DNA of 35,477 nucleotides, from positions 1 to 35,477 of the IMG/VR virus record IMGVR_UViG_3300017917_003478, one strand, 5' to 3'. This document shows, one piece after another, positions 11,549 to 34,642 of this stretch (positions within the stretch are counted from its first letter, which is position 1; each line of letters begins with the position of its first letter). The notes below the pieces were generated by a model. It saw nothing but the letters and a program-made list of their open reading frames with translations. It was not told the origin of the DNA and ran no database searches. The translations under genes were made by a program, and so were the position numbers. Origin of the DNA: a virus.

Positions 11549-12301
11549 ATGATAAAATTAGCTACACTTTTAAAAGAAATTACTGACAAGCCTAAAGCTA
11601 TATTTTTAGCTGGTCCTGCTGGTAGTGGGAAAACTTATATTTCAAAACAATTAATCCCTTCTTCATTAAAAGTTATCAATTCAGATGATACTTATGAGGA
11701 ACTTTTAAAAGCGAGTGGTATTGGTCTAAAACAAAAAGATTTTACACCTGATCAATTATCTCAAGCAGCTAAATTACAAGCACAAGCTCGTAAAGACACT
11801 CAAGCTAAATTAGAAAAATCTATTGAAGATAAAAATGATATTGTTATTGATGGAACCGGTGCGGCTTCAGGTCCAGTATTAAAGAAAAAACAACAACTAG
11901 AAGATTTAGGGTATGAGACATTAATGTTAATGGTTTATGTCTCTCCTCTAACTTCACTTGAACGTAACGCCCAACGTGATAGAAGTTTAATGCCAGGTAT
12001 TGTTTTACGTACATGGAGAGATGTTAATAAAAATATTGATATCTACAGACAAGCTTTTGGTAAAAATTTTATATTACTAGATAATAACCCAGAAAATGCT
12101 AATAAAGGATTCTCTGATGAGTTAATAGCTCCTTACATTCAAGATTCAGCTGCTGTAGGTAAACCTAAAACACCTGAAGAAATGGCTAAATCTAAAGCTG
12201 AAAAAGATGCTTTAAATAAAGAAATAGAAGTTATGGTTAATAAATTACCTGAATTCGATTCAGTCGATTCAGCTAAATCAAAAATCCAAAATTTTATATA
12301 A
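11549..12301 (+). CDS. P-loop kinase, zeta-toxin/AAA_33-like, with N-terminal tag-like segment
   Basis: 250 residues. After the opening MIKLATLLKEI comes IFLAGPAGSGKT (Walker A, G22-T29), then VIDGTGAASG and a lid-like RDRSLMPGIVLRTWRD arrangement, matching small P-loop kinases of the AAA_33/zeta-toxin group. These phosphorylate nucleotides, sugars or RNA ends; the substrate here is unknown. The first ten residues resemble the shared leader of many genes in this cluster, with L-K-E at 8-10. The C-terminal ~50 residues are charged and helical. It is the first gene after a TATTTATA motif. A true toxin is not implied: no antitoxin partner is seen. Confidence 0.65.
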   Translation: MIKLATLLKEITDKPKAIFLAGPAGSGKTYISKQLIPSSLKVINSDDTYEELLKASGIGLKQKDFTPDQLSQAAKLQAQARKDTQAKLEKSIEDKNDIVIDGTGAASGPVLKKKQQLEDLGYETLMLMVYVSPLTSLERNAQRDRSLMPGIVLRTWRDVNKNIDIYRQAFGKNFILLDNNPENANKGFSDELIAPYIQDSAAVGKPKTPEEMAKSKAEKDALNKEIEVMVNKLPEFDSVDSAKSKIQNFI

Positions 12302-12303
12302 TA

Positions 12304-13218
12304 ATGAATATAGGTGAAGAAATAGTATCACAATTATTAGAAGAGTCAACTCCTATAATAGCTTTATACCCAGGTAAATTTAAACCACCACATGCTGGTC
12401 ATTTTAATGTAGTTGCTAAAGCAGCTAATATTGCTGATAAAGTTATTGTGATAATGTCTCAAGGTTCTAAAGATGAATTTACAGCTGAGGACTCAATGAA
12501 AGTTTGGAGATTATATGAAGATATTTTACCTTCAAATGTTCAAGTGATAATATCAGGTAAAGCTTCACCTGTAAGTGAAGTATTTGATATTATAAAAGAT
12601 AAAGAAACAGACTTTATTGTATTATATGGTAAAGGTGAAGAAAGTAGATATAGAGCTATAGAAAAAGATCCTAATACTTATTCTAATGTTAAAATAGTAG
12701 ATGCTGGAAATTTTGAAAGTTTAAACGCTACTGATTTAAGAACAGCTATTAGAAATAAAGATTTAGAAGATATTAAAAAATTCTTACCAGCTAGTATTGA
12801 TCCTAAACAATTCTTATCAATTTATACTCAAAATGAGTTTAAACCTGGTCCTGTATTACATGAGTCATTTACTCCACAAAAAGCACCATTAATGAAATCT
12901 TTTGTTGATTATGCTTGTGATAGATTAGATATAGATGAGCCTAAAATTTATATTATAAATTCTCCTACTTACTCTCAAGAGTATAAAAGTTTTGGAGGTT
13001 ATATACCTTCAGAACAAGAAATAAAAGTAGTAGTACATAACAGAAACATGGCTGATATTTTAAGAACATTAGCTCATGAGTTAGTTCATCATATGCAAAA
13101 TCTAAATGGAGATGAATTAGATGGAAATGACGGTTCTAATACTGAAAATGAAGCTAATGCTATGGCTGGGGTATTAATGAGAGAATTTGGAAGAAACAAT
13201 CCTGAAATATTTGAATAG
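12304..13218 (+). CDS. HxGH nucleotidylyltransferase fused to a zincin-like metallopeptidase
   Basis: 304 residues, two domains. Residues ~17-165 form a cytidylyl/NMN-adenylyltransferase-type domain: GKFKPPHAGH (H30, H33), a central VLYGKGEESR and NATDLRTAIR, the usual C-terminal signature region. Residues ~190-304 hold LAHELVHHM (HExxH at 258-262) followed by ENEANAMAG, whose glutamates could supply the third zinc ligand. The linker contains PVLHES (LHE at 185-187), a possible processing site. The first domain would transfer a nucleotide to a phosphorylated substrate, the second cleave peptides. The N-terminus (EEIVSQLLEES) is a variant of the cluster's leader. One of only two genes in the window ending in TAG. 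Confidence 0.75.
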   Translation: MNIGEEIVSQLLEESTPIIALYPGKFKPPHAGHFNVVAKAANIADKVIVIMSQGSKDEFTAEDSMKVWRLYEDILPSNVQVIISGKASPVSEVFDIIKDKETDFIVLYGKGEESRYRAIEKDPNTYSNVKIVDAGNFESLNATDLRTAIRNKDLEDIKKFLPASIDPKQFLSIYTQNEFKPGPVLHESFTPQKAPLMKSFVDYACDRLDIDEPKIYIINSPTYSQEYKSFGGYIPSEQEIKVVVHNRNMADILRTLAHELVHHMQNLNGDELDGNDGSNTENEANAMAGVLMREFGRNNPEIFE

Positions 13219-13220
13219 TA

Positions 13221-13382
13221 ATGAAGGATATGTTTAAGGATGCAGCTTATTTTGTAAGAATATTAATGGCTGTAGAGAAAGAATTTAATATTACTATACA
13301 AGATTCTGAAGTAAAAAACATAAATACTTTTGAAGATTTAATAGAATTAATACAAGAAAAAGAAAATGATATCACTAAATAA
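13221..13382 (+). CDS. Acyl-carrier-protein-like fragment lacking the attachment serine
   Basis: 53 residues, ATG 13221 to TAA 13382, overlapping the next gene by 17 bases. The run VEKEFNITIQDSEV followed by INTFEDLIELIQ closely fits the second half of acyl carrier proteins (their ExEFgIeIpDeea... and tv.d.v.yi segments). The preceding DSL motif with the phosphopantetheine serine is missing; an in-frame stop at 13212-13214 prevents upstream extension. So it cannot be a classical carrier as encoded. It may be a degenerate ACP, an ACP-like binding fold, or chance resemblance. Confidence 0.5.
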   Translation: MKDMFKDAAYFVRILMAVEKEFNITIQDSEVKNINTFEDLIELIQEKENDITK

Positions 13383-13905
13383 ATTATTTGAAGAAGAAAA
13401 ACCAAAATTAAATTACAAAATTTATTGTGATATGGATGGTGTTCTAGCTGATTTTGAAGCTAGATTTGAACATTTTGCTGGTTTAACTCCTGATGAATAT
13501 AGAGCTGAAGTAGCTAAAAAATATGGTTCTTCTAAAGTAGATGAAATGTTTTGGAACCTAATTGACAAACAAATTGGAGTTAGATTTTGGAGAGGAATAC
13601 CTTGGATGCCTCAAGGTAAACAATTATGGGAGTATATTAAACCTTACAACCCAACCTTACTTTCTTCACCTTCATGGGACGAATCAAGTAGAATGGGTAA
13701 AGCATTATGGGTTAAAGATCACATTCCAGGCATTAAATTAATTTTCAGACAAGCTAAAAATAAATCTGATTTTGCTGAATCAAATGCTATTCTAATTGAT
13801 GATAGAGAAGATACTATTTTAAATTGGAAATCTAAAGGAGGAATTGGTATAGTATATAGAACAACAGATCAAGTAATAAACGAATTAAAACAATTAGGGT
13901 TATAA
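13366..13905 (+). CDS. HAD-family 5'(3')-deoxyribonucleotidase-like phosphatase
   Basis: 179 residues. CDMDGVLADF (21-30) is HAD motif I with nucleophile D22 and acid/base D24; LLSSPSW supplies the motif II serine region; the lysine in QAKNKSDFA and the acidic ILIDDRED give motifs III and IV. This arrangement matches the NT5C-type deoxyribonucleotidases that remove phosphate from dNMPs, used by phages in nucleotide metabolism. The leader MISLNKLFEEEKPK is extra relative to bacterial enzymes and resembles the cluster's shared N-terminal segment (L-F-E at 7-9). The start overlaps the ACP-like gene. Substrate specificity is inferred. Confidence 0.7.
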   Translation: MISLNKLFEEEKPKLNYKIYCDMDGVLADFEARFEHFAGLTPDEYRAEVAKKYGSSKVDEMFWNLIDKQIGVRFWRGIPWMPQGKQLWEYIKPYNPTLLSSPSWDESSRMGKALWVKDHIPGIKLIFRQAKNKSDFAESNAILIDDREDTILNWKSKGGIGIVYRTTDQVINELKQLGL

Positions 13906-13906
13906 T

Positions 13907-14476
13907 ATGTCACAATTAAACAAACAATTCTCAGAACGCGACTTACAACGTATGCGTAATATTATTACAGGTAACACTGCTAATAATACTAGAATTCAAG
14001 CTGGTTATACAAATGCTAAAATAAAACATGTTGAGGGAGACACTTGGGAAGAAGACGGTAAAACCTGGACAATTAAAAATGGGATTAAACAAACTGTCAC
14101 CAAACACGACTCACTAAAGGCAATGGTGGAATTTCCACTTACTTGCCCCGAATGTGGTAAACCTATGAAAAATCATACATTAAATAAAAAAATGTATAGT
14201 ATTCATAAAATGTGTTCGGATTGTGTAGTTGAAATGGAAACTAAACTTAGAGTAGAAGGTAAATATGAAGAATATGAAAAGAAACTTCTAAATTCCAATA
14301 AAAATGAATCAGCAAATACTGCTGAACAAATGTTTGAGGATTTTTTAAATAATCCTTATGTTAGTTATGTAACCGAAGATGGTGTTGTTGAAAACTGGGT
14401 AGGTGGTAATATTACACCTGAACTGATAAAAACTGTAAAAGATAACATAAAACGATTAAGAGAAACAGAATTATAA
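13907..14476 (+). CDS. Zinc-ribbon protein of unknown function
   Basis: 189 residues. It begins with a charged helical region (FSERDLQRMRNIITGN), then a WEEDGKTWTIKNG segment, then a four-cysteine ribbon CPECGKPM (about residues 80-87) and CSDC (about 103-106), followed by a coiled-coil-like acidic region and a C-terminal helix. The cysteine spacing fits zinc binding to nucleic acid or protein. Its leader lacks the clear LIxE tag of its neighbours. Two bases separate it from the HAD gene. I recall similar openings in environmental phages without a function. Confidence 0.55.
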   Translation: MSQLNKQFSERDLQRMRNIITGNTANNTRIQAGYTNAKIKHVEGDTWEEDGKTWTIKNGIKQTVTKHDSLKAMVEFPLTCPECGKPMKNHTLNKKMYSIHKMCSDCVVEMETKLRVEGKYEEYEKKLLNSNKNESANTAEQMFEDFLNNPYVSYVTEDGVVENWVGGNITPELIKTVKDNIKRLRETEL

Positions 14477-14477
14477 A

Positions 14478-14485
14478 TATTTATA
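14478..14485 (+). promoter_or_regulatory. TATTTATA intergenic motif within an ATAAATATTTATA palindrome
   Basis: Copy 4 of 8, just after the upstream stop and 14 bases before ATG 14500. Here the palindrome also gives TATAAATA on the + strand (14472-14479), an exact match to the T4 late -10 core in the transcribed direction. Confidence 0.45.
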
Positions 14486-14499
14486 TAAAAACTTATTTC

Positions 14500-15072
14500 A
14501 TGGCAACTGTAAACATTAAAAACCTAATTAGAGAAAGTATATCAGATTATTTAAACGAATTAAATACTGAAAAAAAAGAAATTCAAGAAACTCCAACTTT
14601 AGAAGAAGGAGCATCAGAATTTGAAGATAAAGTAACTAAAGAACAAGGTAGTATTTTCTTAGTTCGTAAACCAACTAAAGATATGACTGAGGGAGGTATT
14701 GTTAATGCTGTTACACTTAAATCTCTTATAGGTGATGAGTATATTGGTGCTTACCCAACTACTGGTCAAGCAGCAGCTGCTGGTAAAAAAGCTTTAAAAG
14801 CTAGAGATGCTAAATTAAAAGAAAATATTCAAATCGGTAAAGATAAAGTAACAGAATTAGAAGCTAAAATAGAAGAATTGAAAAAAACTATTGAAGACAA
14901 TTCTACTAGAGCGGTTCATGATCCACAAAGAAGAGGTGAGTTAACTGAAACTAACGATACTTTATTTGCTCAATTAGAAAAAATTGAAAATGCAGTTGAA
15001 AAATTAAAAAGTGCATTAGAAAAAGAATCTCCTAAAAAAGCTAAAAAAGAAGAAAAAGAAGACAATGAATAA
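14500..15072 (+). CDS. Tagged coiled-coil protein, probable internal virion or core protein
   Basis: 190 residues. [20 protein letters not shown] is a clear example of the shared N-terminal amphipathic segment, with I-R-E (10-12) and L-N-E (18-20). Residues ~40-95 include a compact region with IFLVRKP and [10 protein letters not shown]. From ~95 on it is a long Lys/Glu-rich coiled coil ([19 protein letters not shown]), ending in a [12 protein letters not shown] tail. Such acidic/basic coiled coils are typical of phage scaffold and core proteins. It overlaps the next gene by 8 bases (ATGAATAA). Function is inferred from composition and tag only. Confidence 0.55.
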
Positions 15073-16702
15073 TACAGATAAATTTAAAAACCTTCTTTTT
15101 AAACTTATTAAAGAAGAAATAGAAAGTAGTGAAGATGAAAAGCCGCAAGGTTTTGAAAAAATAAACTACGATTTAGTATTAGAACCAGCCGATTTACAGT
15201 CGGCTTTATCTGCTTTAGGTGATATTAAAAATTATGGTATCTATGCTAATAATTTAAGAGACCCTAAAATCATTCAAAAAATATTTGGACCTAGCATTCC
15301 AGCTCAAAAAGCAAACACTGCTTGGAGAACTTGGGACACTTTAAATGATGAAGAAAGATTTGCTAAAGCAACTGACATTAGAAATAGAGTACCTGAAGCT
15401 TGGAAAGCATTAGAAACAGATTTAGCTGACAAATATGATGAGTGGCAAACTGAAAATGGTGATGGTTCATTCATTGAATTTATTTCTACTTTAAACTCTA
15501 CAGAATTAAGAAATGTAAAAAGTAATGGTTTCTTTGGTTCAAGAGGAGCTAATTATTATCCAATGAAAACACCTGATAACTTGAAAAAGTATAGTGGTGT
15601 TATGACTAAAGATAAAGATTATGTTGTAGATGGAGATAAAATTATTTTCCCTCAAAAAACTAATCCATTTGAAACTAAAGATTACCTAACTAAGGTATTA
15701 AAAACTATAATGGGTAATGCTAAATTAGCTTATAGTATTTCTCAAAGAGAAGCGGATGATCAACCAACCACTATCTCTAATACACAGGGTGCAGTTGAGA
15801 AAATTAACTTTGTTAAAACGTTTGATAGTCCTGAATTAGCGAAAAAATTTACGCGTCTTATACCTAAAGATTTCGCTCCTAAAACTTCAATGGAAGATAC
15901 TAAAATAACTGTGTCTGATATAACAGACGCTCAAAAGAAAAACCTTATGGCTACAGCATTAAAATTTATATCTGATAATACTAAAAAACCAGTTAAAGAA
16001 TCAATCAAAGATCAAGTTCATAGATTAATTCAAGAGGTGTTAGATGAAAAGAAACTAACTAAAGCTGAAACTAATAAAAAAGAAGATATAGTTAAAGGTT
16101 TAAAGAAATCAGGATTTAAAAAAGATGATCCTGCTCTTTACGCTATTGCAACTGCTAAAGCTAAAAAATTAGCTGAGAAAAAATTCCCTGACTTAACAGG
16201 TGATGGTAAAGTAACTAAAGCAGATATCTTAAAAGGTAGAGGAGTTGAACTTAAAAATGAAGATTTAGACGTAGGTCATCAAGATAATGAACCATCTATG
16301 TTAAAAAGTGATGTTTACAGAATAGCTAAAATGGCTGCTATGTTATACAAACAACTTAACAACTATGATAACATGGGAGAAGTTGATTTTCCTCATTGGT
16401 GGCAAGCTAAAATTATAAAAGCATATGATTACCTTCAAGCAGCTTACGGATACTTAGATGGTGAAGAAAAAACAGCTGCTATTGATTCAATGATGAATGA
16501 AAATGAAGAAGATGTAGTAGATACAGTAACACTAGATATTCCTTTATTTATTCGTATGTTAGAGTATGCTAAAGAAGATGCTCAAACTGATATGGATTTG
16601 CATGATGTAGCTGAAAACGCTATAGCATTAAATAAAAGTAAAGAAATGCTATCAATGGAAGATTATAACACTATAATAGGAGACTCCAACAATGAAGATT
16701 AA
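15065..16702 (+). CDS. Multidomain tagged protein with internal tag copy and EF-hand/dockerin-like loop
   Basis: 545 residues, apparently modular. N-terminal tag: [15 protein letters not shown] with I-K-E. Residues ~30-300 form a unique region. A second tag-like copy, [12 protein letters not shown], lies at 317-328. Next comes a [13 protein letters not shown] block I recall from marine-phage virion proteins, then [12 protein letters not shown] (376-387), matching a calcium-binding EF-hand/dockerin loop (D376, T378, D380, V383, D387). Residues ~411-480 contain [18 protein letters not shown]; ~485-540 contain [16 protein letters not shown]. No enzyme motif. It overlaps neighbours by 8 and 11 bases. 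A prohead core or packaged protein, possibly cleaved into modules, is the inference. Confidence 0.55.
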
Positions 16703-17537
16703 CCAAATTAAAGAATTAATTAGAGAAGCGGTTCAAGCTATTTTTGAAGCTGATATACAGTACAACGAAGGAGACAGAGTAGAAATAGACTCATCTTACG
16801 GTGGGGGTATTGGTACTGTAGTTTTATCAAAACATCCTTTTTATGCTATTAAATTTGACCAAACAGGTACAACAGATTCATTTCACTTTTCTGATTTAAG
16901 ACCATTTGATGATGCTGAAGAAGAAGAAAAAAATGCTGATATAGATACAGGTCTAAATGAAAATGTTTTACTACATGAAGGTATTAAAACTTCATCTAAT
17001 TTAAGATACCACTTAAATAAACAATTGCCATTACATGAAAATATATTCAGATATGGTTCAGATGCTCAATTAGAATTATTTAGAGAAGCAAGAGATTTAT
17101 ATAATAAAGGATTATTATATTTAAACCCTCATGACAGATGGTTAGTAGAAAATACTAGTATTGGTGAATATGGAGAATTTGAAGGTAAATTAGTTTCTTT
17201 AGATGTACCATTTGTTGAAGAAGAAATTTTAAATGAAGCTGAATATCAAGGTAAAGATGTTCAATTAAATAAACCTAAACGTGGTGGTTCTAAAAAATTC
17301 TACGTTTATGTTAAAAATCCTAAAACTGGTAAAATAAAAAAAGTATCATTTGGTGCTGCTGGTGGTGGACAAAATTTAGCTGTTAAAATTAGAGACCCTA
17401 AAGCTAGAAGAGCTTTTGCTAAACGTCAAAACTGTGCTAGAAAAAAAGATAGAACAACTCCAGGATACTGGTCTTGTAATATAGGTCGTTATTGGAAATC
17501 ATTAGGTGGAGGTTCAAATTTTAGCGGATACTGGTAA
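16692..17537 (+). CDS. Tagged modular virion-type protein with SH3-like N-terminal and basic C-terminal domains
   Basis: 281 residues. The tag [20 protein letters not shown] is the clearest in the window (I-R-E at 10-12). Residues ~22-72 look like a small SH3/KOW-like barrel (GDRVEIDS...GGIGTVVL). After an acidic stretch, LNE (88-90) and LHE (94-96) precede a domain with [18 protein letters not shown] (LHE 114-116) and [14 protein letters not shown] (180-182) precedes a basic C-terminal domain: [34 protein letters not shown] and [14 protein letters not shown] recall this last domain widely in marine phages. The LxE tripeptides at each border suggest processing. Biochemical role unknown. Confidence 0.6.
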
Positions 17538-18256
17538 TGGATAATTTAAACGAAAAAGAAAAACGTGATAGATGCTTACGTATAGCTGACCGTAAGTTTG
17601 ATAAACCATCAGCTTATAAATCTGGTGCTGTAGTTAGATGCCGAAGAGGAGATATATGGAAAGGGATAAAAGAAGCTCTTAATGAACTTTTATCTGAAGA
17701 TGAATCACTTCATAAATGGTTTAAAAGACAAGGTCCTAAAGGTAAAGAAGGCGGATGGGTAGATTGTAACGCACCTGACGGTAAAGGAGGATATAAAGCT
17801 TGTGGTAGAAAAGAAGGTGAAAAACGTTCCAAATACCCAGCTTGTAGACCTACTCCTGCTGGTTGTAAACGTAAAGGTAAAGGTAAAACTTGGGGTAAAA
17901 CTAAAGAAGATATGATAAAATTAAAAGACTTAATTACAGAACTAGATTCAGAAAAAATATTCCATATAGAAGGAACTATTATAATTGATAATCAAAAACG
18001 TGACGTTCAAGATATATTATCTGATGTTAGAGCTTTACCTGGTATCACTGTTGTACGTAATGTAGAGATACCACAAGATGCTACCTCTCGTTACTTTAGA
18101 AGTTCCCTTGAAATTAAAGTAGATCCTTACCCTTATATTAAACAAAATAAATTTGATGGTAAAACTACACTTGAAACTGTAATAAACAATATAAAAATAA
18201 TCCCTGGAGTAGTAGGATTTAAACAAACAGCTGAACCATATTCATCAGAAAACTAA
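17537..18256 (+). CDS. Fusion of DUF5872-like basic domain and a second tagged domain
   Basis: 239 residues. Residues 1-54 contain RCLRIADRKFDKPSAYKSGA and end with LNELLSE, like an additional tag. Residues ~57-125 (LHKWFKRQGPKGKEGGWVDC ... KYPACRPTPAGC) are basic and Cys-containing, resembling the DUF5872 family, recalled rather than searched. Residue 126 is an internal Met (ATG 17912) opening MIKLKDLITELD, which looks exactly like a gene-start tag, followed by an alpha/beta domain (IEGTIIIDNQKRDVQDILSD ... RSSLEIKVD) of ferredoxin/ACT-like appearance. It therefore looks like two genes fused. It overlaps both neighbours by one base. Confidence 0.6.
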   Translation: MDNLNEKEKRDRCLRIADRKFDKPSAYKSGAVVRCRRGDIWKGIKEALNELLSEDESLHKWFKRQGPKGKEGGWVDCNAPDGKGGYKACGRKEGEKRSKYPACRPTPAGCKRKGKGKTWGKTKEDMIKLKDLITELDSEKIFHIEGTIIIDNQKRDVQDILSDVRALPGITVVRNVEIPQDATSRYFRSSLEIKVDPYPYIKQNKFDGKTTLETVINNIKIIPGVVGFKQTAEPYSSEN

Positions 18257-18522
18257 TGAAACCTTATAAAGAAGTTATAAAAGGTAAATCACGTGTTCGT
18301 GAATTTAAAGTTAATACCCCTAATAAAGAATTAGTATGGCATAGAGATGAAAAAGATCGCCATGTTACTGTTTTAGAGGGAGAAGGTTGGCTTTTTCAAT
18401 TAGATAATGAATTACCTTTGGAACTTCGAAAAAAAGATGTTATATTTATACCAAAACAAAAATACCATAGAGTATTAAAAGGTAAAACAGACCTATTAAT
18501 TAAAATAGAAGAACATGACTAA
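18256..18522 (+). CDS. Small cupin-fold protein
   Basis: 88 residues. WHRDEKDRHVTVLEGEGW (28-45), then a PLELRKKDVIFIPKQKYHRV block, fits the two conserved cupin motifs, with candidate metal ligands H29, H35, E40 and H77. Cupins are small beta-barrels that bind sugars, metals or act as enzymes; nothing here selects among these. It is a single-domain form near the minimum cupin size. It has no tag. It overlaps the upstream stop by one base and the downstream tagged gene by 8, so it belongs to the same transcript. Fold well supported, role unknown. Confidence 0.7.
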   Translation: MKPYKEVIKGKSRVREFKVNTPNKELVWHRDEKDRHVTVLEGEGWLFQLDNELPLELRKKDVIFIPKQKYHRVLKGKTDLLIKIEEHD

Positions 18523-18934
18523 AATTGAATTAAAATCTATCCTTAAAGAAATGATTTTAGAAATGGTTGATACTCACCCAGTTCATAAAAAAATCAATGA
18601 TAAATTAATGCAAATAGCTAAACAAGGCTATGACGCTGAGGAAAGAGAAACATATAAAGGTGATCCTGAAAAAGGAAATAAAGTATTAGATAAAGCTAAT
18701 CCTGAGAATGTAGCTAAAATTCTTAGAGGAGAAAAACCAATGTATGAAGGAGAAGGTGAAGAAAAAGAGTATACTGTAAATTACTGGTATAGATTTGGTA
18801 AATATGGAGATGATAAAGATTGGGATGATATTAAAGTAAAAGCAACTTCTGAAGCTGAAGCTATAGAAAAAGCAAAACAACAAGCTAGAAAAGGAGCTAT
18901 GTCATCATCATTTGAAATAAGAAAAGGAAAATAA
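18515..18934 (+). CDS. Small tagged protein of unknown function
   Basis: 139 residues. MTKIELKSILKEMILEMVD is the shared N-terminal segment (L-K-E). Next is a lysine/glutamate-rich region (KKINDKLMQIAKQGYDAEER) and a C-terminal ~50-residue domain, EYTVNYWYRFGKYGDDKDWD followed by IKVKATSEAEAIEKAKQQA, which looks like a small alpha/beta fold. No catalytic motif. The start lies 8 bases inside the cupin gene. Packaging as an internal virion protein is inferred from the tag alone. Confidence 0.55.
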   Translation: MTKIELKSILKEMILEMVDTHPVHKKINDKLMQIAKQGYDAEERETYKGDPEKGNKVLDKANPENVAKILRGEKPMYEGEGEEKEYTVNYWYRFGKYGDDKDWDDIKVKATSEAEAIEKAKQQARKGAMSSSFEIRKGK

Positions 18935-18935
18935 T

Positions 18936-20486
18936 ATGTCTTTAAACACATTAAAAACTTTAATTAAAGAGGGTATTGAAGATTTTGTTTCACAACAACA
19001 ACGTGAAACTATATCTTTTGAAGATAATCCTCTTGAATATATTCTCCAAAAATATCCTTCACTAGATGCTGCTTTAGCAGATTTAATGACAGAACATTAT
19101 AGAGATTATATTACAGGTGTTTACGTAATAGCACCTAAACCTACTACATTTAGAATTTTACTTCATAATGGTCAAGAATTTTATTTAATTTACGGACCAC
19201 AATCTTATACAGCTAAAGTATCAGGTAAAAAATACTACTTACTTAATTTAAGTGAAGAACAATTTGCTATTAATGCAATTGCTTCTTTATTAGAATTAGG
19301 TATGCCTCCAGGATCTGAAGGCCCAGGTGAACAAACTGATAATGAAGCTGATTTAAAAGGAGAAGAAGCACCAGCTGAAGAAGCACCAGCAGAAGAACCA
19401 GCACCAGAAGAAGAGTTGAAAGAAACTGAAGAAGTTAAACCTAAATCTCCTTTAAGATTTAAAATTGTTAAAGAAGGTTTATCAAAAAAAACTTCCTTAA
19501 ATGAAGTAACTGAAGCTGAGGAAGGTATTGAAATCTTAAAATCTAAATTAGGATTAACAGACGAAAATTTCTCTAAAATATCAGGTAATAGGTATAAATT
19601 ATTAGTACCAGGTTCAGAACGTATTGAGTATATTAAAAAAATTCAAGCAATTGAAGATTTTGATTATGATCCAAGCGCTAAAGGTTCATCAATAGGAGCA
19701 ATAAAATATAAAAATTCATTTTTTATTATTAAACCATCAGGAGCTCAAGGTAGAGCTTCAGCAGGTACTGAAAATGAAGATGTATTAGAAAATGAGATTA
19801 AAAAGTATTTAGCATTAGGTGCTAAAAACATTATATTTAAAGGTTCAAATAAATCTTATACTGTACCAAATGCAACAGGAGTAACTGGAGTAGGATATGA
19901 TGTAGCAGGAGGTAAAAAAGCAGATGTTGTTATAACTGGAGCTAAAGGTAATTATCCAATTTCAATTAAAAAAGATAATGCTGGTTTCTGGGAAAGTGCT
20001 GACACTAGGTATAAAGAGTTAATGACTAAATTAGTAGCTAAAATCAAAAATGGAGATTTTGGTCCTGAATTAGTTTTTAAACCTTTTGTTGATAAATTAG
20101 GTAATGAAAAACAAGGTATAAACATAATGTATAATGATACTACCAATACTAAAGTATCAGGTGTATTAGTAACAGATTTACCTAATAAAGAAGAAGAATC
20201 AATTATATTTGGTTCAGATAATGCGGTTGTAATCTATAGAACTTATACTGAAAGTGATTTTAATCAACAAGGAGACAATTTAATTATTACTGTTTCTAAA
20301 ATTATAGAAAATTTACAAGACGTAGAAGAATTTGATTTAGAACCTGTATTAAATATCAGACATGATTCAACAAGAAGTGCTACTGGTGGTTTAAGAGCTA
20401 CAGTACAACCTAAAAACTTGTTGTATAAAGATGGAGAGATAACAGGAAATAAAATAGAATTATCTTATAACGATATTATATCATAA
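18936..20486 (+). CDS. Tagged protein with Pro/Ala/Glu linker and nuclease-like C-terminal domain
   Basis: 516 residues. Tag: MSLNTLKTLIKEGIEDFV (I-K-E at 10-12). Residues ~25-120 are an alpha/beta domain. A low-complexity linker (EEAPAEEAPAEEPAPEEE, 143-160) is followed by LNE (188-190). The C-terminal domain from ~200 includes GTENEDVLENEIKKYL, KKADVVITG (D330) and YPISIKKDNAGFWESADTRY (K345). The D...SxK-Q/D arrangement resembles PD-(D/E)XK restriction-type nucleases, but a serine stands where the second acidic residue normally is, so activity is uncertain. It ends the cargo-like cluster, just before the 118-base noncoding interval. Confidence 0.5.
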   Translation: MSLNTLKTLIKEGIEDFVSQQQRETISFEDNPLEYILQKYPSLDAALADLMTEHYRDYITGVYVIAPKPTTFRILLHNGQEFYLIYGPQSYTAKVSGKKYYLLNLSEEQFAINAIASLLELGMPPGSEGPGEQTDNEADLKGEEAPAEEAPAEEPAPEEELKETEEVKPKSPLRFKIVKEGLSKKTSLNEVTEAEEGIEILKSKLGLTDENFSKISGNRYKLLVPGSERIEYIKKIQAIEDFDYDPSAKGSSIGAIKYKNSFFIIKPSGAQGRASAGTENEDVLENEIKKYLALGAKNIIFKGSNKSYTVPNATGVTGVGYDVAGGKKADVVITGAKGNYPISIKKDNAGFWESADTRYKELMTKLVAKIKNGDFGPELVFKPFVDKLGNEKQGINIMYNDTTNTKVSGVLVTDLPNKEEESIIFGSDNAVVIYRTYTESDFNQQGDNLIITVSKIIENLQDVEEFDLEPVLNIRHDSTRSATGGLRATVQPKNLLYKDGEITGNKIELSYNDIIS

Positions 20487-22321: not shown

Positions 22322-23506
22322 ATGTCACAAAAAACAAATCTAGTAGCATTAAATGCTAAAGAATTAAAAGAATTCTTAAATCACATTATCGAAAACAATA
22401 GATTCTTACAGGAACAAAATAAAACACCTGTATCAATTGAAGTAATTGGTGAATCAGGTATTGGTAAAACATCAGCTATTGTTCAATTGGCAAAAGAATT
22501 AGATCTTAATTTCGTTAAATTGAATTTATCACAAATTGAAGAAATTGGTGATTTAGTAGGTTTTCCAATTCGTCAGTTTGAAATCCAAAGAAATGATGAA
22601 AGTGAAAAAATTTGGGTTGATGAAAATGTATTAGATGAAAAATTCAAACAAGGTTATCACACAACTGGTTTAAATAGAATGGGTTACTGTCCACCTGAAT
22701 GGATTAGTGGTAAAGAAAAAGGTGGTATCTTATTATTAGATGACTGGAATAGAGCTGATATGAGGTTCATACAAGCTGTAATGGAGCTAATTGATAGACA
22801 ACAATATATTAGTTGGACTTTACCTAAAGATTGGCACATTATCTTAACCGCCAATCCTGATAATGGAGATTATTTAGTTTCAAGTATTGATAACGCTCAG
22901 AAAACACGATTCATTACTGTTCAATTAAAATTTGATACAGAATGTTGGGCTAAATGGGCTGAAGAAAATCAAATTGATGGTAGATGTATTAACTTCTTAT
23001 TACTACACCCTGAACTAGTAACTAAAGATGTTAACAGTAGAAGTGTCTCAATGTTCTTTAATTCAATTTCTTCAATTAAGAGTTTTGATGATTCATTACC
23101 TTTAATTCAGATGGTAGGTGAAGGTTCAGTTGGACCAGAATTTAGTTCTATGTTTACTATGTTTATTAATAATAAACTAGATAAAATGATTTCACCACAG
23201 CATGTAATAGAACAAGATGAAAAATATGTTTTAAATACATTGAAATCAATTGTAGGTAAAGATGATAGTTATAGAGCTGATTTAGCATCAACTTTATCAA
23301 CTAGAATTGTTAACTACTTAGATTTATTTGCAAAAGAAAATCCAGTAGAAAAAACAGTAGTAGATAGAATTTCTAAAATTGTAAATGAAAAAATATTTGC
23401 AAATGATATTTGCTATAACATGGTTAGATCAATTTACAATAATAATCCAAGTAAATTCAAAACCATGATGATGAATAAAGATTTAGTTCAATATATAATG
23501 AAATAA
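22322..23506 (+). CDS. MoxR-like AAA+ ATPase
   Basis: 394 residues. Walker A GESGIGKT (43-50), Walker B ILLLDDWNRA (D140, D141) and a sensor-I-type ILTANPD (about 175-181) identify an AAA+ ATPase, and the order and NRAD/ANP motifs match the MoxR class. MoxR proteins act as chaperones or activators paired with VWA-domain proteins; exactly such a partner is encoded at 24646-25821. A ~150-residue helical C-terminal half follows. The start context is AGTTATG. Two bases separate it from the next gene. In the phage it may remodel a host or virion complex; the target is unknown. Confidence 0.8.
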   Translation: MSQKTNLVALNAKELKEFLNHIIENNRFLQEQNKTPVSIEVIGESGIGKTSAIVQLAKELDLNFVKLNLSQIEEIGDLVGFPIRQFEIQRNDESEKIWVDENVLDEKFKQGYHTTGLNRMGYCPPEWISGKEKGGILLLDDWNRADMRFIQAVMELIDRQQYISWTLPKDWHIILTANPDNGDYLVSSIDNAQKTRFITVQLKFDTECWAKWAEENQIDGRCINFLLLHPELVTKDVNSRSVSMFFNSISSIKSFDDSLPLIQMVGEGSVGPEFSSMFTMFINNKLDKMISPQHVIEQDEKYVLNTLKSIVGKDDSYRADLASTLSTRIVNYLDLFAKENPVEKTVVDRISKIVNEKIFANDICYNMVRSIYNNNPSKFKTMMMNKDLVQYIMK

Positions 23507-23507
23507 T

Positions 23508-24620: not shown

Positions 24621-24645
24621 TTTCATATATTAAATAAAAAAGGTT

Positions 24646-28159: not shown

Positions 28160-29617
28160 ATGAGTTCATTCGATCTAGTAAAATTTAGAAACCAATTATT
28201 AGCTGAGGATCAATCAGTTGAAGAAAATATTTTAAATGAAGATTTATCATACCTTGCCTCTTGGAAAGTATTAAAAGGACCAGGTGGTTATATCTTCCAA
28301 ATCCAAGATCCAAATAGTGACAGTACTATTGGTGCTAGAGTTAATAAAGCTGGAATGGCTACTTTAGATGGTGAAGGAGTAGAAGCAGCACAAGCTGTTC
28401 AACAAATAGCTGATAAATTTGGAACTGAAACTGAAGTATTATATGGTGATGATAGTTTAACTACTGTTATTTCTGAACCTGATTTTAACGCTATTTTTCC
28501 TGACACTATAAGTGAGGCTAAAATGACTAGAGCTGATGAAGTTGGATCTGACGGAGTAGCTGAAGAAGATGCTTTAGATGAAACTTTAAATTTAGACCCA
28601 TCATCTCCTCAAATCTCTCAATATTGGGATATTATGGTAAAAAATCAACCTGAAGATGTAATCAAAATCTTAACTGATTTAACAGCAGGTAGATTATCAT
28701 TTAAAGATTTCTTAGATACTACTGAAGATGATATTTTTGACTCATTTAGAGATGAATTTATGGATTTAGATGAAAATGCATTAAAAGAAAATGTAATGGA
28801 AAGAATGGGTATCTTTGATGATATTGATGCTGATTTAGAAAATGAAGAAGAACCAGTTGAATATTTAAAAGATATTATTAAATACTGTGAACAACAGATA
28901 GAAATGTATTCTGATGATATGGAAGATTTAGATGAAGGTGCATTAAAAGAAATGGCTTCATTTTATAAAGTAGCAGATAATTCACCAGAAGCAAAAGCAG
29001 CTATAGCAGCAGCAAAAGAAAAATACAAACCAGGTACTACATTATATAACACCTTAGATACTTTAGAAAAAACAGGTGAAATTGATTATAAAGAATTAGC
29101 TAAAACAACTGGAAAAGATATGGCTACATTCAATAATCCAAAATCAAGAGAAGTATTAGAAAAAGATTTAGCAGCATTCGTACAAGCAGGTTCATCACCT
29201 TCAGCTGTTAGAACAGGTAGACCTGCATCAGAAAAACCAGAAGGTACTCCAAAAGAAAAAACCGGAAAATTAAAAATAACTAATCCAAAACCAGCTTCAA
29301 CTAAACTAGCTGACTTAGCACCTGCTGATGTATTCTCAGGAATGGGTCCAGATGAAGAAGAAATGGAAATGGAAAAACAAGCTGTAAAAGCTGCTAAAGG
29401 TAACAAAAGATTAGGTACTACAGTTGAAAAATTAGCTCAAGTAACTAAAGAAATGAAAGCTTTAGCTAAAGAATATCAAGCAGCTAAAGGTACTCCAGAA
29501 GAAGCAGGTATTGTTGCTCAATTAAAAGCTTTAACTGCTGAGAAAAAAGCATTAGAGAAAAAAACAGCTCCAAAACAAATGTCTGCTGCTGATTTAATGG
29601 GTGGAGAAGACCTATAA
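28160..29617 (+). CDS. Acidic modular virion or core protein upstream of terminase
   Basis: 485 residues, strongly acidic in the first two thirds. The opening MSSFDLVKFRNQLLAEDQ resembles the cluster's leader (L-A-E at 14-16), and ENILNED gives LNE (25-27) before a compact domain with YIFQIQDPNSD. The centre has Asp/Glu-rich helices (MGIFDDIDADLENEEEPVEY, DEGALKEMASF). The C-terminal third is Lys/Ala-rich, Pro-containing and coiled-coil-like (KLAQVTKEMKALAKEYQ). No enzyme motif. Composition fits an internal head or scaffold-type protein. A small-terminase role is possible by position, but the protein is far larger than that family. Confidence 0.5.
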   Translation: MSSFDLVKFRNQLLAEDQSVEENILNEDLSYLASWKVLKGPGGYIFQIQDPNSDSTIGARVNKAGMATLDGEGVEAAQAVQQIADKFGTETEVLYGDDSLTTVISEPDFNAIFPDTISEAKMTRADEVGSDGVAEEDALDETLNLDPSSPQISQYWDIMVKNQPEDVIKILTDLTAGRLSFKDFLDTTEDDIFDSFRDEFMDLDENALKENVMERMGIFDDIDADLENEEEPVEYLKDIIKYCEQQIEMYSDDMEDLDEGALKEMASFYKVADNSPEAKAAIAAAKEKYKPGTTLYNTLDTLEKTGEIDYKELAKTTGKDMATFNNPKSREVLEKDLAAFVQAGSSPSAVRTGRPASEKPEGTPKEKTGKLKITNPKPASTKLADLAPADVFSGMGPDEEEMEMEKQAVKAAKGNKRLGTTVEKLAQVTKEMKALAKEYQAAKGTPEEAGIVAQLKALTAEKKALEKKTAPKQMSAADLMGGEDL

Positions 29618-29634: not shown

Positions 29635-31230
29635 ATGTCTGAAAATACTCAACTCCCGTTAAAGGAGATTATCAAACAAGAGTGGCTTAGATGTGCTCAA
29701 GATCCAGTTTACTGGATGAAGAAATATTACTGGATCCAACACCCACAAAAGGGTAGGATCCAGTTCAATCTTTATCCGTTCCAAGAAAAAGTATTAGTAC
29801 AACTTCAAAAGAACGAATATACGATTATTAATAAATCTAGACAGTTAGGTATCTCAACATTAGCCTCAGCCTATTCTTTATGGTTGATGTTATTCCAAAA
29901 AGATAAAAATATACTATGTATCGCTACTAAACAAGAAACAGCGAAAAACATGGTTACTAAGGTTAGGTTCGCATATGACTCGCTTCCCAAATGGATGCAA
30001 ATTAAAACGGCGGAACATAACAAATTATCGCTACGTTTAGCTAACGGATCACAAATTAAAGCAGTAGGAGCAACAGCGGATGCGGGTCGATCAGAAGCCG
30101 TTTCATTCCTTATTATTGATGAGGCAGCTTTTATTGAAGGTATTGATGAGATTTTCGCATCAGCACAACAAACCTTAGCTACTGGGGGTCAATGTCTAGC
30201 TTTATCTACACCTTATGGTACAGGTAACTGGTTCCATAAATCATTTACTAAAGCACAAGCTAGAGAAAATAAATTTGTTCCATTATCTTTACCATGGACT
30301 GTTCATCCTGAACGAGACCAAACATGGAGAGACGCTCAAGATCAAATCTTAGGTATAAGAAATGCAGCACAAGAGTGTGATTGCGATTTTAGTACATCAG
30401 GGGATACTGTTATTGAACCTGACATGCTTAATTTCTATGAATCCACTTTCATTTCAGATCCAATGGAAAGAAGAGGAGTAGATGGATCTTTATGGATATG
30501 GGAAACACCAGATTACACTAAATCTTATATGGTAATAGCCGACGTTGCTAGAGGTGACGGAACTGACTACTCTACCTTTCATATTATGGATGTTGAAGTT
30601 GCTAAACAGGTAGCTGAATATAAAGCTCAAATTCCAACTAAAGATTTTGCAAATATTTTATTCTCAATATCAACTGAATATAATGATGCTTTATTAGTAG
30701 TAGAAAACGCTAATATTGGTTGGAGTGTAATTGAACAATTAATTGAAAGAGGATATAGAAATTTATATTACTCTTCTAAAGCAGATACAACATTTGGTGT
30801 AAGTGAAAATCAAATGGCTAGAATGGAAAATGGTCAAGGTATGGTACCTGGATTCACAACTTCTATGAAAACTAGACCATTATGTGTTTCAAAATTAGTA
30901 TCTTACATACATGAAAAATCTGTTATAATTCAATCTAAAAGGTTAATGGATGAATTGAGAGTATTTGTTTGGAAAAACGGTAAAGCTCAATCACAATCAG
31001 GTTATAATGATGACTTAGTAATGGCATTTGCTATTGGGTTATTTTTACGAGATACTGCCTTAAGAAATAGACAACAAGGAATTGAACTAACTAGAGCTAC
31101 ATTAGGAAGTTTTGGAGTAAGTAATCATACAGCTCCTGGAGTATATTCAGGTAATTCATTCGCTCAAAATCCATATCAAATAGATGATGGGCGCGGAGGA
31201 ACCGAAGATATATCATGGTTACTTAGATAA
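29635..31230 (+). CDS. terL: Terminase large subunit, T4 gp17-like
   Basis: 531 residues. The ATPase domain has NKSRQLGIST (66-75), where the usual lysine before S/T is isoleucine and a lysine lies earlier at 67, as in many terminases; Walker B is LIIDEAAF (D162, E163) and the coupling motif LALSTPYGTG (188-197). The RNase H-like nuclease domain shows IADVARGDGTDYS (D303), LLVVEN (E357) and GYNDDLVMA (D459/D460). It packages DNA into proheads through the portal encoded next. T4 gp17 is longer (~610). Context AGTTATG. The first ~250 codons use more G+C-rich codons than the rest. Confidence 0.95.
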   Translation: MSENTQLPLKEIIKQEWLRCAQDPVYWMKKYYWIQHPQKGRIQFNLYPFQEKVLVQLQKNEYTIINKSRQLGISTLASAYSLWLMLFQKDKNILCIATKQETAKNMVTKVRFAYDSLPKWMQIKTAEHNKLSLRLANGSQIKAVGATADAGRSEAVSFLIIDEAAFIEGIDEIFASAQQTLATGGQCLALSTPYGTGNWFHKSFTKAQARENKFVPLSLPWTVHPERDQTWRDAQDQILGIRNAAQECDCDFSTSGDTVIEPDMLNFYESTFISDPMERRGVDGSLWIWETPDYTKSYMVIADVARGDGTDYSTFHIMDVEVAKQVAEYKAQIPTKDFANILFSISTEYNDALLVVENANIGWSVIEQLIERGYRNLYYSSKADTTFGVSENQMARMENGQGMVPGFTTSMKTRPLCVSKLVSYIHEKSVIIQSKRLMDELRVFVWKNGKAQSQSGYNDDLVMAFAIGLFLRDTALRNRQQGIELTRATLGSFGVSNHTAPGVYSGNSFAQNPYQIDDGRGGTEDISWLLR

Positions 31231-31261: not shown

Positions 31262-33190
31262 ATGGTAGATACCTCATTATTTGGTAGATTAAAAAGAATT
31301 TTTTCTACTGACGTTATTATAAGAAACGTTGGTGGTAATCAATTAAAAGTAATGGATACAGACCGTATCCAACAACTTGGTACATTACAGACAAATTCAT
31401 TATTTGATAGATATAATAAAATATACACTACTACTGGTGGTTTAAATTTTAATTATAATACTGATACTACCTATCCTACACAAAGAATCCAATTGTATGC
31501 TGATTATGAAATGATGGATCAAGATTCTATTGTTGCTTCTACATTAGATATATTAGCTGATGAAACTTGTTTAAGAAATGATATGGGAGAAGTATTACAA
31601 ATACGTTCTTCTGATGAAAATATTCAAAAAATACTTTATAATTTATTCTATGATGTATTAAATATAGAATTTAACTTATGGTCATGGACTCGTAACATGT
31701 GTAAGTATGGAGATTTTTATCTCAAACTAGAAATCTCAGAAAAATTTGGTGTTTATAATGTAATACCATTCTCTTCTTATTCAATTCTTAGAATAGAAGG
31801 TCAAAATCCTCAAAAACCTCAAGAAGTAAAATTCAAATACGATCCAACTTTTTCAACTTCAACTTCACCATTAGGGTTCCAACAGATGTCTCAAATATCT
31901 GTAAACCGAGATGATAAAATAGAGTTTGATAATTTTGAAATGGCTCACTTTAGATTATTATCTGATTTTAATTATTTACCTTATGGTAGATCTTATATAG
32001 AACCAGGTCGTAAAATCTTTAAACAATTAACTTTAATGGAAGATGCGATGTTAATACATCGTATTGTTAGAGCACCTGAAAAACGTACATTCTTTGTTAA
32101 CGTTGGTAATATTCCACCTAATGAGGTTGAGAATTACATGCAACGTACTATTAACAAAATGAAAAAAACACCTTATATGGACCCTCAAACTGGTCAATAT
32201 AATTTGAAATATAATATCCAAAATATATTAGAGGATTTCTATATTCCTGTAAGAGGTGGTGACGCAACAACTCGTATTGAAACTACTAAAGGTTTAGATT
32301 ACGCAGCTATTGAAGACGTTCAATATTTAAGAGATAAATTATTCGCTGCTTTAAAAGTTCCAAAAGCTTATTTTGGATATGAAAAAGACTTAACAGGTAA
32401 AGCTACATTAGCAGCTGAAGATATTAGATTTGCTCGTACAGTAGAAAGAATACAAAAGATATTAGTATCAGAATTAACAAAAATTGCTTTAGTTCATTTA
32501 TATTCACAAGGATATGATGGAGAGTCATTAACTAATTTTGAATTATCTTTAACTACACCTTCTATCATTTATGAACAAGAAAAAATAGCGTTGTTAAAAG
32601 AAAAAACAGCATTAGCTACTGAGTTAATTCAAAATAAAATTGTACCATCTGATTGGATTTATGACAATATATTCCAATTTAGTGAAGATCAATATGATGA
32701 ATATAGAGAATTAATGATTGAAGACGCTAAACGTAAATTTAGAATTGATCAAATTGAAACCGAAGGAAATGATCCATCTAAAACTGGAGTAGCTTATGGT
32801 ACACCACATTCATTAGCTTCACTTTACGGTCCAGGTAGATATGATGGTACAGGAAATGTTCCTAAAGGATATGATGAGAAAAAAGATGTTTACCCAGACC
32901 AAGTATTAGGTAGACCAAAAGAAAAAGCATCAAGTATTGGAACCCAAGAAAATCCTCTAGGTAGAGATAGATTAGGTACTAAAGAAATGGGTGGTGCAGG
33001 TGAAGAGCCAAAAGGATTTAAAACAGCTTATAAAGGTGGTTCTCCATTAGCTCTAGAAAATGCTAACACACAAATTGCATATCATCAAATACAAGATTCT
33101 TTAAAAAGTATGTTCCCTCAACGTAAAATAAAATTATACGAAGAGAGTGATTTATTAAACGAAGACAATCTTTTAAGGGAGGATATATAA
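31262..33190 (+). CDS. Portal vertex protein, T4 gp20-like
   Basis: 642 residues. Motifs of the gp20 family are present in order: MMDQDSIVASTLDILADE, a stem-region LMEDAMLIHRIVRAPEKRTF, FVNVGNIPPNEVENYMQ, then ILEDFYIPVRGGDATTRIET and LFAALKVPKAYFGYEKD. The portal forms the dodecameric DNA gate of the head and binds terminase and neck proteins. The C-terminal ~130 residues are Gly/Lys/Pro-rich, and the last 18 (LYEESDLLNEDNLLREDI) hold three LxE tripeptides, like the tail of a processed head protein. T4 gp20 is ~524 residues, so this is extended at the C-terminus. Confidence 0.9.
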   Translation: MVDTSLFGRLKRIFSTDVIIRNVGGNQLKVMDTDRIQQLGTLQTNSLFDRYNKIYTTTGGLNFNYNTDTTYPTQRIQLYADYEMMDQDSIVASTLDILADETCLRNDMGEVLQIRSSDENIQKILYNLFYDVLNIEFNLWSWTRNMCKYGDFYLKLEISEKFGVYNVIPFSSYSILRIEGQNPQKPQEVKFKYDPTFSTSTSPLGFQQMSQISVNRDDKIEFDNFEMAHFRLLSDFNYLPYGRSYIEPGRKIFKQLTLMEDAMLIHRIVRAPEKRTFFVNVGNIPPNEVENYMQRTINKMKKTPYMDPQTGQYNLKYNIQNILEDFYIPVRGGDATTRIETTKGLDYAAIEDVQYLRDKLFAALKVPKAYFGYEKDLTGKATLAAEDIRFARTVERIQKILVSELTKIALVHLYSQGYDGESLTNFELSLTTPSIIYEQEKIALLKEKTALATELIQNKIVPSDWIYDNIFQFSEDQYDEYRELMIEDAKRKFRIDQIETEGNDPSKTGVAYGTPHSLASLYGPGRYDGTGNVPKGYDEKKDVYPDQVLGRPKEKASSIGTQENPLGRDRLGTKEMGGAGEEPKGFKTAYKGGSPLALENANTQIAYHQIQDSLKSMFPQRKIKLYEESDLLNEDNLLREDI

Positions 33191-33231: not shown

Positions 33232-34092
33232 ATGGCACAAATCAAACATAACAAGTACAAAAACACTGGTATATTATTTGAACTTTTAGTGAGAAAAATT
33301 ACAGCTGATACTATGTCTAATCAAGACTCTAAAGCTGTTAATTTAATTAAAAAATTCTTTGTTAATAGTGAATTAGCAAAAGAAAACAAAATGTACCAAA
33401 CTATATCTAAAGCTCATAATATTAATGAGACTAAAGCTGAGACTATTATTTCAACTATATTAGAAATTAATAAAACTTTAGATAAAGATAAACTAGCTAA
33501 AGAAAAATATAATCTTATAAAAGAAATTAAAAATAATTTTGATTTAGATGATTTTTTCAAAGCTAAAATTTCTAACTATAAATTACTTTCCTCTACTTAT
33601 ACTCTATTAGAAGCTAGTGCTTCTCCTGTTAAAAATTTAGAAACTATTATTAATTCTAAATTAAATATTATAGAGAATATTACTTTACCTGCAGTTTCAA
33701 CTGAGTTATCTCCTATGATAACTGAATTTCAAGATTTAGATAAAGGTACTAGAGCTTTAGTTTATAAATTAATGTTAGAAAAATTTAATACTAAATTTGA
33801 TAAATTATCAAGTGAAAAAAAAAGAGTATTAAAAGAGTATATTGTTAATATTACTGATACTACTAAATTAAAATCTTTTGTTGATACTAGCTTTACTTCA
33901 CTTAAAGAATCTTTATTAAAAGTTCTACCTCAAATTGAAGACGCTACAGCAAAAATTAAAGTTAATGAAGCTATTAATTTAATAACCCCAGTCTTAGAAT
34001 CTAAAAAATTAAAAGACGAACATATAGTTTCTTTATTACAGTATCAAGAGTTACATGATGAGTTAAATAAAATTCATAATGGAAAAAAGTAA
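33232..34092 (+). CDS. Helical head-assembly protein downstream of portal, function unknown
   Basis: 286 residues, almost wholly helical and Lys/Leu/Ile-rich. The start KHNKYKNTGILFELLVRKIT is a block I recall as conserved next to portal genes in environmental T4-related phages. No catalytic or metal motif, and no LIxE tag. It overlaps the next tagged gene by 14 bases, so translation is probably coupled. Core, scaffold or chaperone roles in head assembly are all possible from position; T4 gp21 and gp22 equivalence is not shown by motif. Confidence 0.6.
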   Translation: MAQIKHNKYKNTGILFELLVRKITADTMSNQDSKAVNLIKKFFVNSELAKENKMYQTISKAHNINETKAETIISTILEINKTLDKDKLAKEKYNLIKEIKNNFDLDDFFKAKISNYKLLSSTYTLLEASASPVKNLETIINSKLNIIENITLPAVSTELSPMITEFQDLDKGTRALVYKLMLEKFNTKFDKLSSEKKRVLKEYIVNITDTTKLKSFVDTSFTSLKESLLKVLPQIEDATAKIKVNEAINLITPVLESKKLKDEHIVSLLQYQELHDELNKIHNGKK

Positions 34093-34642
34093 ATTAAAAG
34101 AATTAGTTAAACAAGTATTTACAGAATACTTAGATGAAATGTCTACATCAGGTGGTGCAGGCGCATATTTAACTAAATACGCTTTTAAACCTAAAGATTT
34201 AGATGAAGCTGTAGCTTACTCTACACCTAAAGCTTTTAATAAAACTTCTAAAAAAGAACAAAACACTCCTGCAGGATTTGAAAAAATGCCTAAATCAGGA
34301 AAAGCTTATACTGACATAGGGTACAAACAAGTAAAACTATCAGATAGATTAAATTCAAAAGATTTATGGGCTGGAGAACATCTTAATGAAGCTAGATATA
34401 GTACTTTTAAAAAAGAAGTAAAAACAAGAACTCCTCAACAGCAATTACATGAAGGGGTTAAAGCTATTCAACGTAGATTAGATGAAATCAATAGAATAGT
34501 AGAATTTACTACTAGAATGAAAGCTGAATTGAAAGAAAGTGATGAAGGAGTAATGTATTTAGAACGTACTAAAAAATCACTAAATAAAATTAACGAAAAA
34601 ATTCAAGAAATTAATATTAAAATCAACAATTTAACCGAGTAA
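34079..34642 (+). CDS. Tagged head/core protein with coiled coil
   Basis: 187 residues. MEKSKLKELVKQVFTEYLDE is the shared leader, with L-D-E at 18-20 directly before STSGGAGAYLTKYAFKPK, a Gly/Ser-rich opening that would become a new N-terminus after cleavage. LNE (102-104) and LHE (123-125) bracket the start of a C-terminal coiled coil (RRLDEINRIVEFTTRMKAEL). Composition and position among portal and head genes suggest a prohead core or internal protein. Overlaps the genes on both sides (14 bases, then 1 base). No T4 counterpart can be named. Confidence 0.6.
   Translation: MEKSKLKELVKQVFTEYLDEMSTSGGAGAYLTKYAFKPKDLDEAVAYSTPKAFNKTSKKEQNTPAGFEKMPKSGKAYTDIGYKQVKLSDRLNSKDLWAGEHLNEARYSTFKKEVKTRTPQQQLHEGVKAIQRRLDEINRIVEFTTRMKAELKESDEGVMYLERTKKSLNKINEKIQEINIKINNLTE

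Follow-up and report, generated by a model that had tools for sequence, protein, structure and literature searches.

The window analysed here is a complete IMG/VR virus record (IMGVR_UViG_3300017917_003478; 35,477 bases) and represents a linear fragment from a T4-like myovirus. Besides head genes and a payload cluster at 11549-20486, it has genes for tail fibre-like proteins, a primase, an exonuclease, an oxidoreductase and a MoxR/VWA pair; the annotated portals closest to its own are those of Flavobacterium phage immuto (64%) and of Microcystis phage Mel-JY01 (51%). The subject of this analysis is a short N-terminal segment, here called tag, leader or label, which recurs in the payload cluster and the head region and resembles the capsid-targeting sequence (CTS) of phage T4. 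An earlier note on this DNA had listed similar N-termini at 11549, 14500, 15065, 16692, 18515, 18936 and 34079, and all seven were found at these coordinates (for example, MIKLATLLKEITDK at 11549, MTKIELKSILKEMIL at 18515 and MSLNTLKTLIKEGIE at 18936). Three N-termini that it had included more loosely, 12304 (..VSQLLEES), 13366 (MISLNKLFEEE) and 28160 (MSSFDLVKFRNQLLAE), also fit, and are backed by homologues and synteny. An internal copy in the 17537 protein was absent from its list. The tagged features are given below with the evidence for each in brackets; the profile and the strict register are defined after the list.

11549..11578, + strand: CTS-like tag MIKLATLLKE on a P-loop kinase, 11549-12301 (profile, strict register, homologues)
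12304..12345, + strand: tag MNIGEEIVSQLLEE on an HxGH cytidylyltransferase-like/HExxH zincin protein, 12304-13218 (strict T4 register)
13366..13395, + strand: tag MISLNKLFEE on a HAD 5'-3' deoxyribonucleotidase, 13366-13905 (homologues, strict register)
14500..14535, + strand: tag of 12 residues on a coiled-coil-like protein, 14500-15072 (profile, strict register)
15065..15115, + strand: tag of 17 residues on a protein of 545 amino acids, 15065-16702 (profile, homologues)
16692..16727, + strand: tag of 12 residues on a protein with a C-terminal phrog_7595/HVA1-type domain, 16692-17537 (profile, strict register, homologues)
17912..17941, + strand: internal tag MIKLKDLITE at about residue 126 of a DUF5872 fusion protein, 17537-18256 (homologue alignment)
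18515..18550, + strand: tag MTKIELKSILKE on a protein of 139 amino acids (profile, strict register, tag exchange)
18936..18971, + strand: tag MSLNTLKTLIKE on a protein of 516 amino acids, 18936-20486 (profile, strict register)
28160..28207, + strand: class B variant tag MSSFDLVKFRNQLLAE on the protein directly upstream of terL, 28160-29617 (synteny, homologues)
34079..34126, + strand: tag MEKSKLKELVKQVFTE on a gp72-like protein (profile, strict register; homologue immuto gp72, MKKSQIVKAVQEVLEE)

In the 15065 protein the Glu is at residue 17, while in the 34079 protein the first site lacks Glu (LVKQ) and the Glu is found at VFTE. The P-loop kinase has homologues with divergent bodies that keep the tag (MKLIDLILE, MIKLADLILE). 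The 28160 protein is syntenic with immuto gp77 (MADNFNLRSFLTEN) and has homologues in the loci L011 and L012 (FDLKKAKNFLLTEN), and the gp72-like gene lies in relatives between the gp73-like and protease genes. The AlphaFold2 model of the 516-residue protein, based on six sequences, was unusable (mean pLDDT, the predicted local distance difference test, 45), and its label of nuclease-like was neither confirmed nor refuted.

Two observations concern the bodies in the cluster. The protein at 12304-13218 joins an HxGH cytidylyltransferase-like domain (KPPHAGHF) to a zincin-like domain (HELVHH), and the transferase is also fused to the nucleotidase in the relatives L104, L107 and L108. The conserved payload neighbour at 13907-14476 is zinc-ribbon-like (CPECGK..CSDC); its start, LNKQFSERDLQRMRNIITG, is loosely RMQKLAGIITE-like and is kept in homologues.

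A leave-one-out profile was built from the seven main segments, each window member being omitted when itself scored. At the cut-off of p<0.01, matches were found for 8/38 N-termini in the window (0.4 expected), 9/218 in immuto (2.2 expected) and 8/235 in Mel-JY01 (2.35 expected). The strict register, [LIVMFY]..[LIVMF][LIVMF].E with Glu at residues 9-16 and the expectation taken from internal positions, occurs in 8/36 (0.6 expected), 19/211 (3.4 expected) and 8/229 (3.7 expected), respectively. Among 102 IMG/VR loci, picked solely by portal or nucleotidase similarity and with open reading frame (ORF) starts from a simple caller, 172 of the 1,221 ORFs show it against 20 expected; homologues inflate this count, and 168 distinct N-termini were therefore also used. 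At residues 6-10 in these loci, LLxE is enriched 4.7-fold and LLxE[AGSE] 11-fold relative to internal positions, and the LLxE enrichment is present in every set examined. The internal-position null is imperfect for N-termini, but the comparison within the immuto genome is independent of it: 11/28 genes of the payload/head block carry the tag versus 8/183 elsewhere (p=1.2e-6). By inspection, 16-20 immuto genes are tagged. The common N-terminal segment is genuine, and its frequency greatly exceeds that expected by chance.

The register of the segment corresponds to that of the T4 CTS. The N-termini were aligned on the selected Glu (position 0), with -3 part of the selection pattern and -6 outside it. 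Position -6 is hydrophobic in 73% of the 168 distinct tagged N-termini (Leu 56%) versus 25% (Leu 6%) of 725 internal look-alikes (p=3e-30). The same hydrophobic -6, -3 and -2 with Glu at 0 are seen in T4 IPII/IPIII (MKTYQEFIAE|A) and gp24 (MAKINELLRE|S). Scanning of T4 with amber suppressors assigned targeting mainly to residues 4 and 7 and processing to residues 8 and 10 (PMC9026906), which are equivalent to -6, -3, -2 and 0 of the tag register; the tags are thus hydrophobic at the equivalents of IPIII residues 4 and 7. The class B leader (MENFDLKKFLVEN) has a register identical to that of the T4-type tag. The (I/L)-x-Glu site is present by selection, and the following P1' residue is A, G or S in 33% of tags versus 14% of controls. 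As in T4, an N-terminal leader of ~10-19 residues is common to proteins with unrelated bodies.

The window contains the following head genes besides the tagged ones.

29635..31230, + strand: terminase large subunit, terL (context; its N-terminal helix is tag-like and runs directly into the conserved terminase start)
31262..33190, + strand: T4 gp20-like portal, 64% to immuto gp20, which marks a T4-type head
33232..34092, + strand: conserved head-region protein of the immuto gp73 family, shared by two isolates only, immuto and Mel-JY01, and by one uncultured phage

The gene order in immuto is terL, portal, gp73, gp72, gp71, prohead protease, gp69, scaffold-like gp67 and major capsid protein. Close relatives encode a gp21-like protease, a scaffold and a capsid protein which starts MSxINSLLES and has a conserved KSGLLE|G ~30 residues in, a site of T4-type form at which the cleavage positions are predicted. 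Most of their proteases have an (L/I)-x-E site within the first 25 residues. The relatives with the protease, the scaffold and the KSGLLEG capsid protein include L010 and L011, whose portals are 83-84% identical to that of the window; a protease and a matching capsid propeptide thus occur together in relatives of this closeness.

Judged from sequence, the label is modular: the same protein bodies occur with different labels or none. BLAST homology starts at or just after the tag between proteins with different tags (L035|2636 versus L046|2117, E=1e-33; L101|13305 versus L109|3733, E=3e-33), and one family (family 47) includes tag classes A, B and C; single-linkage cluster 0, which mixes families, was left out of this analysis. 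The deoxyribonucleotidase body is conserved while its leader varies (MISLNKLFEEE, MISIKELFKEE, MKNSIVDLLEA, MSKYKLQDLMEA and, in immuto, MKKVMGNLADLLLEE); the divergent leaders keep L-x-E, and the nucleotidase is bare in L110 and L111, two loci of unassessed head type. The 17537 protein is DUF5872 fused to a module which L097 and L101 encode as a tagged protein of its own, and the fusion retains the leader internally: L097|14426 (MISISKLLNEGNLDKIFH) and L101|15320 (MIKLNNLLNEATLDKIFH) align from its residue 126. The C-terminal domain of the 16692 protein (phrog_7595, HVA1 in some records) is common to smaller pelagiphages and roseophages. It starts bare in HTVC111P, HTVC202P, Kolga and CRP-902 (MAKYKGRTVKLNKP and similar), has a different, non-tag extension in CRP-6, and is preceded by the T4-register tag MKKFKQYIDE|G in kyanovirus C48C1. 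The HVA1-type domain thus carries a label in T4-type phages and lacks one in phages of other types. No obvious tags were seen among the genes inspected in Rhodothermus phage RM378.

Published virion data bear on one payload type. Among the 41 proteins that mass spectrometry identified in purified virions of Synechococcus phage S-SM1 is the putative cytidylyltransferase T4-GC190 (PMC3037559), whose translated start, MKKFSAFLNE|AERSF, has the exact T4 register. The 12304 protein is remotely related to it (E=6e-5) and to its Melnitz homologue (E=1e-5; start MKKFSEIIE|A). Packaging of a labelled cytidylyltransferase is thus supported by virion data in a cyanophage. HTVC008M and Melnitz further have relatives of the payload kinase (E=4e-28), nucleotidase (E=1e-27), cupin (E=3e-24) and HVA1-type domain (E=5e-29).

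A second kind of label, class C, was recognized in the relatives as an N-terminal copy of the scaffold C-terminal element RMQKLAGI. The scaffold tail in relatives reads, for example, ENNDFVxRMQKLAGII, and immuto gp83 and others start MKKQILSEQFRRMQKLAGIITES. With a profile of 30 scaffold C-termini, 13 unrelated N-termini outscore the best of 382,736 non-scaffold internal positions. An independent DNA-pattern scan of viral contigs for MQKLAGIIxE found it N-terminal in 69 of 77 distinct ORFs and C-terminal in 3, the following Glu required by the pattern excluding most scaffold tails. The element did not turn up in the window; among isolates, a tblastn search with the class C segment matched immuto alone, and a literature search on RMQKLAG strings returned nothing relevant. 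Two head-entry routes, the T4-type CTS and a mimic of the scaffold C-terminal tail, are slightly favoured on these comparisons. Cargo with the mimic would pose as scaffold, and the labels would be freely exchangeable modules for swapping in new injected enzymes.

The segments are most likely T4-type capsid-targeting propeptides and the cluster prohead-targeted, protease-processed and ejected cargo. This reading, proposed in the earlier note, is supported by the register match, the protease, scaffold and LLE|G site of relatives, the tag exchange, the bare domain in phages that are not T4-type, and the labelled cytidylyltransferase of S-SM1 virions. The shared register, the modular labels, their occurrence alongside a T4-type head and the likeness of RMQKLAGI to the scaffold tail are seen directly in sequence. 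The short amphipathic leader, hydrophobic at -6 and -3, would dock the new protein on the assembling prohead core. A gp21-type prohead protease would then cut after (I/L)-x-Glu, either the site whose Glu is at position 0 or another close by, and the cut would free the protein inside the head, with ejection together with the DNA to follow. In this way the phage and its relatives would load a large, fast-changing payload: P-loop kinase, HxGH cytidylyltransferase-zincin, deoxyribonucleotidase, DUF5872 and HVA1-type modules, and unknowns. The tagged enzymes probably travel inside the virion and enter the host together with the DNA; in this phage they would be packaged, cleaved at the predicted position, injected and active early, the injection step being assumed on the precedent of T4.

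Several points weigh against this reading. The window ends just short of the protease, and the protease and capsid genes are seen only in the relatives. In many tags the P1' residue following the first Glu is other than small (E, V, I), so that cleavage may take place at another site or not at all. Bare members of the payload families also occur in T4-type relatives (NMNAT in L102, L103, L105 and L106, and the kinase in L104, L104|7965), and no virion proteomics was found for this clade, immuto included. The earlier note had regarded an equal frequency of the profile on non-virion proteins as damaging; this is not so for primase, nuclease and MoxR, but TerL, which is not a packaged protein, does score (p=0.0009 in the window; MSQDIKQIIREEY in relatives). 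The TerL of the window (29635-31230) starts with LPLKEIIKQEW and those of relatives with IKQIIREEY, a look-alike continuing into the conserved terminase N-terminus. TerL resembles the motif, and the motif alone is therefore no proof of packaging.

A rather unlikely alternative to packaged and ejected cargo is that the tagged proteins are accessory proteins of the prohead core or scaffold, docked for head assembly and then degraded or retained in the head instead of being injected. The 34079 gene and other tagged genes do lie among head genes, and several tagged proteins are small, acidic and coiled-coil-like, as is T4 gp67. Against this, several bear enzyme domains of no known assembly role (kinase, cytidylyltransferase, nucleotidase), the payload turns over fast between relatives while head genes do not, and internal proteins of T4 that bear this type of leader are injected (PMC12373910). 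A further alternative is that the leader is a helix that docks away from the prohead, for example on the inner membrane, a host enzyme or a phage replication complex. The segments are short amphipathic helices, a shape with many docking roles, and TerL has a similar helix. This alternative is improbable, given that the conserved Glu and the register match a known protease site, that the RMQKLAGI variant matches the scaffold tail, and that phages whose heads are not T4-type have the same domain without the leader. Amphipathic, Glu-rich helices are frequent at N-termini, and the weak motif LxE is matched by some genes without sign of packaging, so the likeness could in principle be compositional. 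Such chance similarity is extremely improbable in view of the positional enrichment of LLxE and LLxE[AGSE], the conservation at -6, the concentration in the immuto block and the exchange of tags independently of the body, and it was rejected on the enrichment, profile and register tests.

Other observations concern proteins outside the cluster. Tandem paralogues in L007 (11277-13719; Mel-JY01 60276-62718) start MIKLKSLLQEIISDRVWHLTT; a tagged relative, L074|1478, has a weak match to Pfam Tox-ART-HYD1 (E=6e-4), which suggests packaged ADP-ribosyltransferases comparable to T4 Alt. Strongly tag-like proteins, not obviously cargo, lie beside a gp25-type baseplate gene in L001 (1526-1945, immuto; MKLDLLKKLIKEAVKEAV) and L009 (15464-15994, Mel-JY01; MEPKKFIEIIRAVIREEI). 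In the window, 22322-25821 encodes a MoxR-like ATPase, an unknown protein and a VWA-type protein, a chelatase/chaperone-like cassette with no tag in any member, and the tail-type protein at 4708-7113 has a run of ~15 threonines (IPTTTTTTTTTTTTTTTLPP) ahead of its C-terminal domain.

It has long been asked which of the many unknown phage proteins enter the host at the onset of infection, and most of the answers so far have come from T-even phages. If the targeting reading is correct, injected proteins could be predicted by a simple test of the N-terminus across a large group of uncultured T4-like phages, marine and freshwater, and such a test would flag dozens of enzymes as candidates for host takeover or anti-defence. 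The scaffold-tail label would be a new loading route and a possible tool to pack chosen proteins into phage heads. The host of immuto, Flavobacterium sp. LMO8, is cultured, so direct testing is possible.

The CTS principle itself is already known. The T4 proteins Ip1-3 have only the leader in common and are injected inhibitors of GmrSD nucleases, and the leader has already served to identify Ip genes in T-even phages (PMC12373910). The present clade is similar to the T4 IPI-IPIII system (PMC9026906, PMC12373910) in its short N-terminal leader on unrelated bodies, in the hydrophobic/Glu register, and in the T4-type portal, gp21-type protease and scaffold. It differs in the consensus (K-x-L-K-x-L-I-K-E instead of MKTYQEFIAE), in ~16-20 tagged genes in one genome versus 3 in T4 (at least 10 across T-even relatives), in a payload that includes nucleotide-related enzymes, and in the second label matching the scaffold tail. 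Giant phages such as SPN3US (PMC10052503) likewise have head proteins from which a diverged gp21-type protease removes an N-terminal propeptide, cutting after Glu, and other proteins that are packaged and ejected. They belong to a separate lineage, in which 42 head proteins are uncleaved, and the comparison covers cleavage, packaging and ejection. T4-GC190 of S-SM1 (Kyanoviridae, PMC3037559) is a remote homologue of the 12304 domain with a T4-register leader and was found in virions, but its leader resembles that of T4 and not K-x-LIKE, the protein of the window has a zincin-like domain fused to it, and the link is weak (E=6e-5). In the open-access literature, no report was found of CTS-type leaders in the present clade, and none joining capsid targeting, T4-like and metagenome. 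What is new here is the scale (16-20 tagged genes in immuto), the enzyme payloads common with kyanoviruses, the interchangeable leader classes and the scaffold-tail label.

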